34,478 nucleotides of DNA, taken from NCBI GenBank assembly GCA_022340745.1, contig JAJDNL010000024.1, positions 1 to 34,478 of the forward strand, read 5' to 3'. The stretch is from Deltaproteobacteria bacterium (lineage in GTDB: Bacteria; Desulfobacterota; Syntrophobacteria; BM002). Shown here piece by piece: positions 4,116 through 28,497 of the stretch (the first letter of the stretch is position 1; the number at the start of each line of letters is the position of its first letter). The position numbers and the translations under genes were made by a program. The notes under the pieces are model-generated. The model searched no databases. It saw nothing but the letters and a program-made list of their open reading frames with translations, and had not been told where the DNA came from.

Positions 4116-4526
4116 ATGGCTACTCTTTTGGGCAGACGCCAGTATTCTAGGACTAGTGTCAAATGGCCCGTAACTGTACTGACCTCTCAGGATAAAACAG
4201 AGGGGGAGACAGAAAATGTGAGTCCCACAGGGGCGTTTATTTCATGTACAGTTGTACCACTATCGGAGGGTAGCATTCGTCTGGTCATTAAGGTCCCAGG
4301 TCACCAGCCAATAAATGTTGCCGGTAAAGTGGTGTGGTCGAAAGTTTTTAACCCCAATACGGGTGCTCCATCTTTCGGCGTGGGTGTCCAATTTACCAAG
4401 ATTTCCGAAAATGATAGCCACTTCCTGCGAGAGGTAATTTTAAAGCGCTATGGCAAAATGATTAACCGCTTCATCGCCAAGACCGAGCAACCACAAACTA
4501 ATCAAGAGGACAAGTCTATACCCTAA
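4116..4526 (+). CDS. PilZ domain protein
   Basis: RRQYSR and NVSPTG motifs; VAGKVVWSKVF. Confidence 0.85.
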   Translation: MATLLGRRQYSRTSVKWPVTVLTSQDKTEGETENVSPTGAFISCTVVPLSEGSIRLVIKVPGHQPINVAGKVVWSKVFNPNTGAPSFGVGVQFTKISENDSHFLREVILKRYGKMINRFIAKTEQPQTNQEDKSIP

Positions 4527-5903: not shown

Positions 5904-5953
5904 GTTTCATCGACCTGGCAGCAAAAAGTCAGATAGTGCTAAGAGACAAAGAC

Positions 5954-6045
5954 TGAGGTTTCAGTTTTTTTGTTTTTCTTCTCTGACACCTGACACCCGA
6001 AACCTGAAACCTCAGTTTTGCGGTTTGCGATTTAAGAATTTTATT
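5954..6045. repeat. Heptad-phase repeat locus (AGGTTTC family)
   Basis: GAGGTTTCAG at left; CTGACAC CTGACAC CCGAAAC CTGAAAC CTCAGTT TTGCGGT TTGCGAT TTAAGAA TTTTATT in constant phase (5983-6045). Confidence 0.75.
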
Positions 6046-6174: not shown

Positions 6175-7365
6175 ATGACCGCGTCTAATCTTTCCAATTC
6201 TGAGTCACTTCTATTGATGATAGCCGGAGCCAAAGGAGCTGTCGGATCCACCGTCGCGGTGGCCTCTGCGGCCATGCGGTACCAGCCAGAATTGGTCTTG
6301 CCAAGCTTGACCACGAAACAAATGTTGCCCGGTTTAGATCCTTCCGAGCCAGTTCAGGTGGCGGGCTGGGATGCAACAGATACGACGCTGCCTTCAGCCA
6401 TAGGGGCCCAGGGGGTGCTATCGGAAGAAATATGGAAGCCTTACGCGGACGAACTCGAACAGGTACAGGTGCGGACACCACCTTCAGACAGCCTGGACTT
6501 AAAAGGCCAGGTTCAACAACTGACCCAGGACATCAAGGAGTTTAGAGGACTCTATCCCAATGCAAGGGCTGTGCTCATCAACCTGCTGCCCGCGACAGTC
6601 ACAGAGAATCTACATCGCTTTAAGAGCCTTTCCCAACTGTATTCTGAATTCGACCCTATAAATCTTCCTGATCTCGCCTACGCCATCGCTGCGATACTCG
6701 CTGGTGTTCCGGTGGTTAACTTTACCCCAAATGAGGTGGAAATCCCTGTGGTAATAGATGAGGCTGTCAAGCGAGGTGTCCCACTATCAGGGCGCGACGG
6801 CAAGACCGGCCAGACCTATTTAAAAGTTGTATTGGCTTCAGCCTTGAAGGCCAGAAATCTGTTCGTCGATGGCTGGTACAGCCTGAACATCCTCGGCAAT
6901 CAAGATGGGAAAAACTTGATGGATCCCAAAAGGGCTGCAGGGAAGTTGTCAAACAAGACCGAAATTCTCAATGAAATTCTTGGTTATCCCGTGGGTGAGC
7001 GATATGGAGCTTCTTCCCACCAGGTTAAAATCGATTACTATCCCCCCCGCGGTGACGCCAAAGAAGCGTGGGATGTGATTGATTTTCTCGGCTTGTTCGG
7101 ACTGCCCATGAGTATCCGGTTGAATTTGCAGGGCAGGGATTCAATTCTTGCGACTCCCCTTGTCTTGGACCTGGCCCGTTGGATGGTTGTCCTTCAAAGG
7201 GCGGGTCGCTCCGGCCCGATACCCGAACTGGCATTCTACTATAAACAACCACTGGGCGATGATGCTCCTGTGACCTTCCAAGACCAGCTTTCCAGGCTTC
7301 GCCAGTTGGCTACTGGACTGCGAGAAGAGATCAGCAGGCAGAAGGCAGTGCGCAGCGGGCGGTAG
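6175..7365 (+). CDS. ino1: myo-inositol-1-phosphate synthase
   Basis: GAKGAVGSTVAVA, NFTPNEVEIPV, GRDGKTGQTYLK, NILGNQDGKNLMDPKRAAGKLSNK motifs. Confidence 0.92.
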   Translation: MTASNLSNSESLLLMIAGAKGAVGSTVAVASAAMRYQPELVLPSLTTKQMLPGLDPSEPVQVAGWDATDTTLPSAIGAQGVLSEEIWKPYADELEQVQVRTPPSDSLDLKGQVQQLTQDIKEFRGLYPNARAVLINLLPATVTENLHRFKSLSQLYSEFDPINLPDLAYAIAAILAGVPVVNFTPNEVEIPVVIDEAVKRGVPLSGRDGKTGQTYLKVVLASALKARNLFVDGWYSLNILGNQDGKNLMDPKRAAGKLSNKTEILNEILGYPVGERYGASSHQVKIDYYPPRGDAKEAWDVIDFLGLFGLPMSIRLNLQGRDSILATPLVLDLARWMVVLQRAGRSGPIPELAFYYKQPLGDDAPVTFQDQLSRLRQLATGLREEISRQKAVRSGR

Positions 7366-7394
7366 ACAGCAGGCAGTTAGTAGCGGGCAATCGG
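7333..7394 (+). repeat. Heptad-phase array overlapping the 3' end of the inositol-phosphate synthase CDS
   Basis: AGCAGGC AGAAGGC AGTGCGC AGCGGGC GGTAGAC AGCAGGC AGTTAGT AGCGGGC AATCGG in strict 7-bp phase; the TAG stop is at 7363-7365 inside GGTAGAC. Confidence 0.8.
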
Positions 7395-7426: not shown

Positions 7427-8281
7427 TTGCTGATGATAATAGGCTACAGCACGAATGCCTTTGTGAAGTTCTCTGTTTTCGAGGCAGTGGAAAAGATCGG
7501 TCGCTTGGGCTTTCGGGGGGTAGAGATCATGTGCGACAGGCCCCATCTCTATCCCCCAGACTTCGACGAGGAAAACCTAACCCGATTGAAAACCTTAATC
7601 GATGCTCAGGGTCTCATCGTTACCAACCTGAACAGCTTCACCTTGTTCGCAGTCGGAGATACCTACCTCCCATCCTGGATTGAACCCCAGGAGGAAAGGA
7701 GGGAAATGAGGATCGAGCACACCTTACAATGCTTGAAAGTGGCCGATTTTTTCGGTTGTAAGAATATATCCGTGCCACCCGGCGGCCCAGTGGGTGAGAT
7801 CTCGCGCAAAAAGGCCATGGCCCTGTTTCATCAAGGATTAGAGATGGTTGCTCCTTTGGCGCAGGAATTGGACATAATGATACTGGTGGAGCCCGAGCCA
7901 GATCTTTTGATGGAAAACACCAGGGACTTCAAAGAGTTCATTGTAGATGTCAGATCACCTGCAATCGGGGTAAATTTCGATATTGGACACTTTTTTTGCG
8001 CAGGGGAAGACCCCAGTGGAGCCTTTGAAGAACTTTTTGAATGGATAGGTCACGTTCATCTCGAAGATATTGCCTCGAGCCGGGAACACAATCATCTAAT
8101 TCTCGGCCATGGGGCCATTCAATTTCCCGAGATTTTCGAAACCATGCTCAGGCTCGAGTACCAGGGCAATGTCAGCCTCGAACTCTACCCATACGTTGAT
8201 GAACCTGAAAAAGCCGGAAGAGAAAGTCTCGAATATCTCCGCGCCTTGCTCCGAGATGGCGGCCTGGATCTGGCTATCTAA
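7427..8281 (+). CDS. Sugar phosphate isomerase/epimerase (xylose isomerase-like TIM barrel)
   Basis: LGFRGVEIMCDRPH, ILVEPEPD, VNFDIGHFFCAGEDP, HVHLEDIA, VSLELYPYVDEP. Start may be TTG 7427 or ATG 7433. Confidence 0.85.
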   Translation: MLMIIGYSTNAFVKFSVFEAVEKIGRLGFRGVEIMCDRPHLYPPDFDEENLTRLKTLIDAQGLIVTNLNSFTLFAVGDTYLPSWIEPQEERREMRIEHTLQCLKVADFFGCKNISVPPGGPVGEISRKKAMALFHQGLEMVAPLAQELDIMILVEPEPDLLMENTRDFKEFIVDVRSPAIGVNFDIGHFFCAGEDPSGAFEELFEWIGHVHLEDIASSREHNHLILGHGAIQFPEIFETMLRLEYQGNVSLELYPYVDEPEKAGRESLEYLRALLRDGGLDLAI

Positions 8282-9149: not shown

Positions 9150-9201
9150 GGCGAGCTGGCAGTGGGCAGCTTGCAGTAGGCAGCGGGCAGATGGCAGTAG
9201 G
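9150..9201 (+). repeat. Heptad-phase array (GGCAGTG words)
   Basis: GGCAGTG GGCAGCT TGCAGTA GGCAGCG GGCAGAT GGCAGTA (9158-9199), directly after the DUF169 stop. Confidence 0.8.
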
Positions 9202-9310
9202 TCATTGTGGCGTTGAAACAACTTAATGACGGCCGCAAGGCCTAGAGACGGGCGCAGCCCTCGTGACAACGAAGCGCAAACGCGCGAAGTGTAATGACCT
9301 GTGGGTGCTT
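9202..9310. repeat. TGAC string element with mini-hairpins (second copy)
   Basis: AATGACGGCCGCAAGGCC, GGGCGCAGCCC, GTGACAACGAAGCGC; ends in GCGCGAAGTGTAATGACCTGTGGGTGCTT, matching the end of the 1259-1497 element. Confidence 0.6.
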
Positions 9311-9322
9311 AGTGCCTACTGT

Positions 9323-10435
9323 TTAGTATCTAGTTGAACCGATAGTTACTTGGTCTAGATATCGCAAAATGGTTTCAGCACAGACTTCGGCACCATTGCA
9401 TGGAAGGGCGGGCGCCACCCGGGGCTGTCTCTCGAGTTCTCCTATGGCAGCTTGCCATTTTCCCGCATAAAGATCTTCGGAGGAGATGTATACGGTAGTC
9501 AAGTGTTTGGCCATCTCCCGTACCAGGATGTCGTATTCGGGGAAAAAGCCTCTGTCCGTGTATATAACTGAAGTGCCATGGGCAAGGCAGTCAGAAACAA
9601 TGCCGTAACCCGGCTTGGTGACGACACCATCAACCGCGGCGACTACATCCTCGTAGCTAAGGGGGTACTCATCCAGGCAAATACCGTTGCGAAAATGAAA
9701 GCTCAAGGGGTGTTTGAAAAGAAACATTGCATCGGTGATTTCCTCTAACCGCTTTTGCGCAGTCTCTCCCAGGTCGAACCAACCGAAAGAGATAAGATAG
9801 ACTTTCTGATCTAGACGTAATCCAAGTATTTTCAGGGTCTCCTCGCGTTCTCGTTTGGCCCGACGAGCCACGAGTGGGACATCTTGAATGGTAGGACAGG
9901 CCGAGCAATCCCCGTGCATGGGTAATTGGAGGAGAAGCGGGCATGTATGGTATGATTTTCGGATCCAGTCCACCAGGGGTGCCCAACGGGAGTCTGCGGA
10001 AGCGTATGCCTGATATATCCAGTCCCAGGTGAAGTTTCCCATCCCTATAGCTGGGATGGAAGCCTGAGATGCAGCCTCAAAAGGCAAGAAGGGAATATCG
10101 CAGACTACGGCCTGAACCTCTTGGGTTTTGAGAAAATGAATTTCATCTGCCACCAGAGCTTCCCGATGGTCATGAAGGAATTGCAATCGGTCCAAGGTGG
10201 CGCTTAGATCGAACTGGATGCTATCTCGTTGAACCAGACCAATGTCGAGCTGTTTTCTCCTGAATGACACAGAGTCGCCCAGGCTCTGGTTCACCAGGAA
10301 CTCAGGGAGGGTGGAGACGATCACAATGTCTACAGTCGGCGCTCGCACCAGCAGATGGCGTATCACCTCAATGGAACGCACCGCGTGTCCAAACCCGTGC
10401 GGGGTGATGTAATAGGCGAGCCGCCTGTTTTTCAT
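9323..10435 (-). CDS. Glycosyltransferase-like protein (MurG-like / N-terminal domain of L-arabinokinase type)
   Basis: YYITPHGFGHAVRSIEVIRHL, AVVCDIPFLPFEAA, TKPGYGIVSDCLAHGTSVIYTDRGFFPEYD. Confidence 0.8.
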   Translation of the reverse strand: MKNRRLAYYITPHGFGHAVRSIEVIRHLLVRAPTVDIVIVSTLPEFLVNQSLGDSVSFRRKQLDIGLVQRDSIQFDLSATLDRLQFLHDHREALVADEIHFLKTQEVQAVVCDIPFLPFEAASQASIPAIGMGNFTWDWIYQAYASADSRWAPLVDWIRKSYHTCPLLLQLPMHGDCSACPTIQDVPLVARRAKREREETLKILGLRLDQKVYLISFGWFDLGETAQKRLEEITDAMFLFKHPLSFHFRNGICLDEYPLSYEDVVAAVDGVVTKPGYGIVSDCLAHGTSVIYTDRGFFPEYDILVREMAKHLTTVYISSEDLYAGKWQAAIGELERQPRVAPALPCNGAEVCAETILRYLDQVTIGSTRY

Positions 10436-12650: not shown

Positions 12651-12670
12651 ATGGCAAACGGCAAAGGTTG

Positions 12671-12757
12671 AGGTTTCAGTGTTCAGGTTTCAGGTTTCAG
12701 CTTTTTTTGTTGTATTTCCCTGACACCCGAAACCTGACACCTAAGAAACTGAAATTT
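12671..12757. repeat. Heptad-phase repeat locus (AGGTTTC family, inverted arms)
   Basis: AGGTTTC AGTGTTC AGGTTTC AGGTTTC / T-rich core / CTGACAC CCGAAAC CTGACAC CTAAGAA. Confidence 0.8.
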
Positions 12758-21361: not shown

Positions 21362-21434
21362 TCTCAGAGTTTCAGGTGTCGGGTGTCAGGTGTCAGGAAA
21401 AAAGAAAAAAACTGAAACCTGAACACTGAAACCT
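21362..21434. repeat. Heptad-phase repeat locus (AGGTTTC family in reverse orientation)
   Basis: AGTTTC AGGTGTC GGGTGTC AGGTGTC AGG / A-rich core / CTGAAAC CTGAACA CTGAAAC CT. Confidence 0.8.
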
Positions 21435-24801: not shown

Positions 24802-24899
24802 GTTTGCCGTTTACCGCTTACAGCTTACTGCTCACCGCTTACCGTTTACCGTTTACCGTTTACCGCTTACTGCTCACCGCTTACCGCTTACCGCTCACC
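24802..24899 (+). repeat. 14-unit heptad array (GYTTACC)
   Basis: GTTTGCC GTTTACC GCTTACA GCTTACT GCTCACC GCTTACC GTTTACC GTTTACC GTTTACC GCTTACT GCTCACC GCTTACC GCTTACC GCTCACC with no phase slip. Confidence 0.95.
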
Positions 24900-28401: not shown

Positions 28402-28412
28402 GGTCCTTGTTT

Positions 28413-28497
28413 AGGTTTCAGGTTTCAGTGTTCAGGTTTCAGTATTTTAATTTTTTTCCCTGACACCTGATCCGCCTCCGGCGGAACACCTGAATTC
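28413..28497. repeat. Heptad-phase repeat locus (AGGTTTC family) with an embedded GC palindrome
   Basis: AGGTTTC AGGTTTC AGTGTTC AGGTTTC / T-rich core / CTGACAC CTGA[TCCGCCTCCGGCGGA]ACAC CTGAA. Confidence 0.8.

Follow-up and report, generated by a model that had tools for sequence, protein, structure and literature searches.

Degenerate heptad repeats at the end of an inositol-phosphate synthase gene in an uncultured Desulfobacterota lineage

The myo-inositol-1-phosphate synthase gene (ino1) described here ends inside a degenerate tandem repeat of seven-base units, which encodes the tail of the protein and supplies its stop codon. Tails of this kind are restricted to one lineage, and the interval from the conserved core to the stop is exactly one heptad shorter than in a close relative, with one extra base upstream. 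We propose that a degenerate AGCAGGC-type tract has lain at the junction between ino1 and the next gene since before the genus diverged, and that it provides the last ten codons and the stop of an enzyme whose conserved part would end at about residue 382-386. The remainder would be repeat-derived and is probably functionally neutral. Units seem to have been gained, lost, and mutated, probably through replication slippage or unequal recombination, which we infer from the exact heptad difference, and other short repeats may have been inserted alongside. Since seven leaves a remainder of one on division by three, every unit change shifts the reading frame, and since pure units lack stops, termination relies on variant units such as GGTAGAC. 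For the ino1 tract, turnover of units and the insertion of further short repeats are enough to account for the data, and we put the probability of the reading as a whole, in which an old heptad tract supplies tail and stop and unit turnover moves the frame, at roughly 0.82.

The ino1 gene and its heptad tract

The window, by which we mean the whole stretch of 34,478 nucleotides analysed, comes from a 3.9-Mb draft genome of 301 contigs (G000), that of an uncultured bacterium of sulfate-reducer type. The nearest named relatives of this genome are uncultured Desulfobacterota (Desulfobacteraceae and Deltaproteobacteria MAGs). On the forward strand, ino1 occupies 6175..7365 (an ORF of 396 aa with TAG at 7363-7365). 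Its product matches Pfam PF01658 (E 3.7e-30) and PF07994 (E 1.7e-23) and qualifies as a synthase by its Inos-1-P_synth and NAD_binding_5 domains (104.7 bits against a cut-off of 27, and 84 against 25). Relatives of the gene were found in 54 of the 60 genomes searched. The next gene, also on the forward strand (7433..8281), encodes a xylose-isomerase-like TIM barrel (PF01261, E 2.8e-42).

The AGCAGGC-type array extends over 7333..7394 of the same strand and reads AGCAGGC AGAAGGC AGTGCGC AGCGGGC GGTAGAC AGCAGGC AGTTAGT AGCGGGC, followed by AATCGG. The sequence-only reading from which this work started had the letters and coordinates right but counted nine in-phase heptamers; there are eight full units and six bases. 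It likewise recognized that the array encodes the C-terminal end, though it assigned about 11 residues (ISRQKAVRSGR) to the repeat. The array begins at the first base of codon 387 (7333) and encodes ten, SRQKAVRSGR, the I lying upstream. Positions 7333-7362 are coding; the unit GGTAGAC then yields the TAG at 7363-7365, which had also been proposed and is confirmed in both the ORF and the sequence, and 7366-7394 is intergenic.

AlphaFold predictions for the ino1 product had a pLDDT of 34 from the single sequence and 74 with 11 sequences. In the latter the tail extends the last helix at low confidence (57-68), and this modelled extension tells little about function. No Rfam families were found across the whole window. 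We rejected an RNA hairpin at the array, where folding was not above that of shuffled sequences (fold z-score +1.19), and a transcription terminator, there being no terminator-like site.

Orthologue tails and changes of frame

An AGCAGGC-type tract is present at the end of ino1 in five other members of the genus and in one sister-genus genome, and every readable tail among the array-bearing orthologues is different. The window protein ends ...LRQLATGLREEISRQKAVRSGR, and those of its relatives end ...LRELALECEKVLADKGREAEGSKQ (L032, about 91% identical), ...LELALDCEKVLADSRQETASSSEPTLGTSGQ (G006), ...LRELGLWCHERILKDRKEEAADSGQ (G002), ...LRELELECNQKIEADSPSTRLRTS (G007), and ...LGELELECDEKIAARTTAGTKQ (G010). 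All six ends enter or adjoin the tract, and the tails at the tracts of relatives are DKGREAEGSKQ, KDRKEEAADSGQ, ADSPSTRLRTS, ARTTAGTKQ, and DSRQETASSSEPTLGTSGQ. In G009 the gene stops just before the tract (...CRERIL*) and the heptad array is then noncoding; the L033 contig breaks off at the tract, where the tail is unreadable. The orthologue in G011, an array-poor genome of the same family, ends ...LKLEKECTSMM. Two more distant orthologues, whose loci of about 7 kb are free of arrays, end ...ECDRTLKGRSSSN (L037) and ...ECAGPVVR (L039). These last three proteins finish at the core helix or just beyond it. Given differing tails in the array-bearing genomes and short ends in the others, the tail is confined to the array-bearing lineage.

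Some of the tails include short palindromic repeats and are thus not wholly heptad DNA. Short palindromes (CCGAGCCTACGCTCGGGACA or CCCGCGGCTAAGCTCGGGACAGG) also occur inside heptad tracts at gene ends of L040, L182, L183, and L033, where they add tails such as SEPTLGTSGQ and SPAAKLGTGWQQAAG.

The clearest comparison of length is with L032. Between TGCGAGAAG and TAGACA lie 35 nt in the window but 42 nt in L032, which leaves the window exactly one heptad short; the interval upstream, from TTGGC to TGCGAGAAG, measures 8 nt in the window and 7 nt in L032. Changes of -7 and +1 sum to -6, and so both genes stop at the homologous TAG. A difference of exactly one heptad, clean in this one close relative only, would arise from indels of random length with a chance of 1 in 7. 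The added base is a T at 7311 (forward strand; its placement is ambiguous with neighbouring bases) that is missing from all seven relatives aligned. It is therefore derived in the window lineage unless it is an assembly error, which it could be. The extra T moves the later codons by one frame and removes a near-invariant cysteine (C382), present in ten of the 11 aligned proteins and missing in the window only. Without the T, the computed ORF stays in frame and continues into the TIM-barrel gene downstream (701 aa), which makes a compensating pair of frame changes a natural reading. From these alignments we suggest that the change of -7 and that of +1 offset one another, in whichever order they came about.

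These comparisons bear on several points raised by the sequence-only reading. It had stated that gain or loss of a unit would alter the C-terminus and the stop position, which agrees with the core-to-TAG lengths and the 1-nt insertion upstream, and which holds in other genes too. It had also expected close relatives to carry absent or different tails if the array had invaded the gene, as the alignment of C-termini bears out, and had treated an identical tail in array-free genomes as contrary evidence; G011, L037, and L039 all lack it. Array invasion of the coding end is supported, but the tract predates the window's species and is old in the genus, so the species did not acquire it by recent invasion. 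On the present alignments the repeat-process reading of the ino1 end is supported: tails differ where repeats occur and are absent where they do not, so this protein's end is rewritten by the repeats while its core function is probably unchanged.

Other array-end genes and the heptad landscape

The ino1 gene is one of many. In a sample from the genus, 44 of 544 genes (about 8%) have their stop in or at an array. TAG is the stop in 22 of these 44 and in 160 of the 500 others (one-sided Fisher p = 0.013), a modest enrichment among genes that are not fully independent. We refer to three examples as pgsA, PBP2, and ThiF-like, names that were read off translated sequences and not taken from a family-library search. 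In G007, pgsA ends ...EDSAGSRGQKTEDRGQRTEIRGQDEN; its CDS takes in 81 nt of the array-scored stretch, and its orthologues have other tails or short ends. PBP2 in the window's genome ends ...EAGTWRQAAGR (tail GTWRQAAGR); its tails within the genus are of repeat type and differ, and in G011, G014, and G030 it ends short. The ThiF-like protein of the window's genome ends ...RSRMIYDLRMQI inside an array, whereas in G004 and G008 the gene has an earlier TAA and the array beyond is kept noncoding. The ThiF-like gene of G000 has thus lost its stop and been extended into an existing array, a second route to a repeat tail.

The same route may apply to ino1, and we give it a little under even odds. The gene would have entered a pre-existing intergenic array after its core-helix stop was lost by mutation or frameshift. 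This fits the stops of ino1 at or near the core end in G009 and G011, the TAA of G009 where G002 has AAA, and the loss in the ThiF-like gene of the TAA that G004 and G008 use. However, the ino1 tract is already coding in four readable array-bearing relatives, and the change of unit length happened within the coding part, so both processes are needed for ino1.

Heptads of several other families occur in the window. TTTCAGG/CCTGAAA heptads lie at 5946-6020, 12666-12740, 21369-21420, and 28409-28443, and often flank a T- or A-rich loop as inverted arms. For the hairpin copy at 5946-6020 there are at least 40 matches in the genome; in three array-poor relatives (G011, G030, and G014) no match was found. 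At 9156-9335, GGCAG heptads are followed by a dispersed element bounded by GGTCATT...AATGACC and then by heptads in the inverse sense (GCTTAGTGCCTACTGTTTAGT); the part of the element from 9201 has many copies in the genus. The GTTTACC/GCTTACC heptads at 24802-24893 are organized into a higher-order repeat of 42 bp (2.2 copies, 92% matches), which points to block duplication. We compared the array sites at 5954, 9148, 10507, 24672, and 28390 with G004, G008, G006, and G007. These orthologous intergenic sites hold different heptad families in sisters that are about 90% identical in their coding flanks, and replacement of one family by another would accordingly seem to be very fast.

It is also possible, if unlikely, that the ino1 array is an arm or remnant of a dispersed mobile hairpin element with heptad-periodic arms, inserted at the gene end, with slippage secondary. 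The copy numbers of the TTTCAGG-type hairpins in G000 and the three array-poor genomes fit such an origin, as does the frequent occupation of orthologous intergenic sites by different heptad families. Moreover, inverted pairing of arrays is frequent: 84 of 225 lie near an inverted partner, where the control pairing gives 20. The ino1 array itself has no inverted partner (14/24) and, as noted above, does not fold better than shuffles, on which grounds we rejected it as a palindromic-element arm or miniature inverted-repeat. A high-copy dispersed element containing the tract was also rejected, as a search of its own genome turned up nothing beyond partial matches of lower identity (at most 46 nt, 83%). 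No target-site duplication was identified.

Genome-wide, the inverted pairs, hairpin copies, and family replacement suggest that, besides slippage, elements that are mobile or actively generated contribute to the arrays. A genus-wide process other than simple slippage, one that lays degenerate multi-family arrays at gene ends, often as inverted pairs, and swaps their families, seems to us improbable. If true, the C-termini of many proteins would be continually rewritten. For the wide landscape of families turning over between sister species we have found no explanation.

We also computed the consequences of changing the number of units at ino1. Removing one heptad gives a 699-aa in-frame fusion with the downstream gene, whose ATG sits in the frame left open by the array after such a loss. 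With one heptad added, the product has 421 aa and terminates at a TGA overlapping the ATG of the next gene (TGATG). Pure tandems of AGCAGGC, AGAAGGC, AGTGCGC, or AGCGGGC have no stop in any frame of the coding strand; stops within the array come from variant units, e.g. GGTAGAC and AGTTAGT. A phase-variation-like switch, with heptad number selecting the array stop, the overlapping stop, or the TIM-barrel fusion, could be read into these outcomes, but we think it very improbable. Degenerate units lower slippage, no natural fusion was found in the relatives, and the outcomes follow arithmetically from the frame with no need for selection. They are arithmetic consequences and no evidence of a switch.

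Lag-7 identity in the ino1 array is 31/55 (0.56), compared with 12/61 at lag 1 and 12/54 at lag 8. The best lag-7 stretch reaches 31/55 in three of 200 shuffled windows, so the array by itself is weak evidence. With a threshold of 26/42 matches, a 258-kb sample of G000 contains 67 lag-7 regions and its shuffles contain 0; lags 5, 6, 8, 9, 10, 11, and 13 gave 0, 1, 10, 1, 0, 1, and 2 regions. Called ORFs hold about 81% of bases, and forty-seven of the 67 arrays are intergenic. G000 thus has the period-7 excess over neighbouring periods, mainly intergenic, that marks bacterial heptanucleotide tandem repeats in the broad sense. The orthologous L032 tract passes the threshold alone (L032:4156-4233, stop at 4195-4197). 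Lag-7 density per 100 kb is 26 in G000, 22 in G002, and 26 in G007, and in small samples from the same genus it is 22 (G004), 13 (G006), and 12 (G008). It falls to 6 in G010 (sister genus), 1 in G011 (another genus of the family), and 0 to 2 in three genomes from other families of the class. Chance periodicity within an ordinary C-terminus, which the three shuffled windows would allow, is the least probable reading of all, and we rejected it because of the orthologous tracts at the same position and the genome-wide lag-7 excess.

Comparison with known heptamer repeats

Direct repeats of the heptamer TAACTGA have been described in marine Beggiatoaceae and other bacteria (MacGregor 2015, PMC4679880). 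Like the arrays here, they are mostly intergenic, and some run over the stop of the upstream gene and add C-terminal residues. They differ in being one fixed heptamer, whose variants are seldom or never repeated, where we see many degenerate families, and in being enriched just upstream of start codons (PMC4679880). In addition, forward TAACTGA repeats stop all three frames, while AGCAGGC-type units leave every frame of the coding strand open. Neither TAACTGA nor its complement is the unit of the ino1 array, and TAACTGA is not among the common consensus units listed for the window's genome. GGGNATC repeats in Xanthomonas and Nostoc (Rehm et al. 2015, PMC4692102) are likewise genome-wide heptameric arrays, preferring the sense strand and positions within 50 bp of stop codons or over them. 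They form a single G-rich, quadruplex-forming family with four units preferred, in contrast to the many families here. A run of three or four Gs marks every GGGNATC unit; only two of the eight ino1 units contain GGG.

The heptanucleotide repeats of Calothrix that PMC4692102 cites and the long simple sequence repeats that PMC4679880 cites from Mrazek et al. 2007 share, in these second-hand accounts, the seven-base unit, several families per genome, and a proposed origin by slippage. Their units are described there as perfect, unlike the degenerate ones here, and the same accounts do not report lineage-restricted protein tails. Rickettsia palindromic elements are a further parallel, as short repeats that become part of many unrelated protein genes (review PMC10969869). 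They are palindromes of about 150 bp inserted in frame, whereas ours is a 7-bp tandem tract at a gene end that changes frame. No study of heptamer repeats from Desulfobacterota came up in our literature search.

Heptamers over stop codons are therefore already known from Beggiatoaceae, Xanthomonas, and Nostoc, as are repeats that enter protein genes. What this work adds is a set of degenerate arrays of many families in an uncultured Desulfobacterota lineage, evidence from one orthologue after another that tails derive from repeats, and the -7/+1 relation. Gene by gene, comparison with repeat-free relatives shows that a non-triplet repeat can be raw material for protein ends, and a unit loss together with a single-base indel can hold termination at the same stop. 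For annotators, repeat-derived C-terminal tails and stop positions in this lineage should not be taken as conserved or functional.
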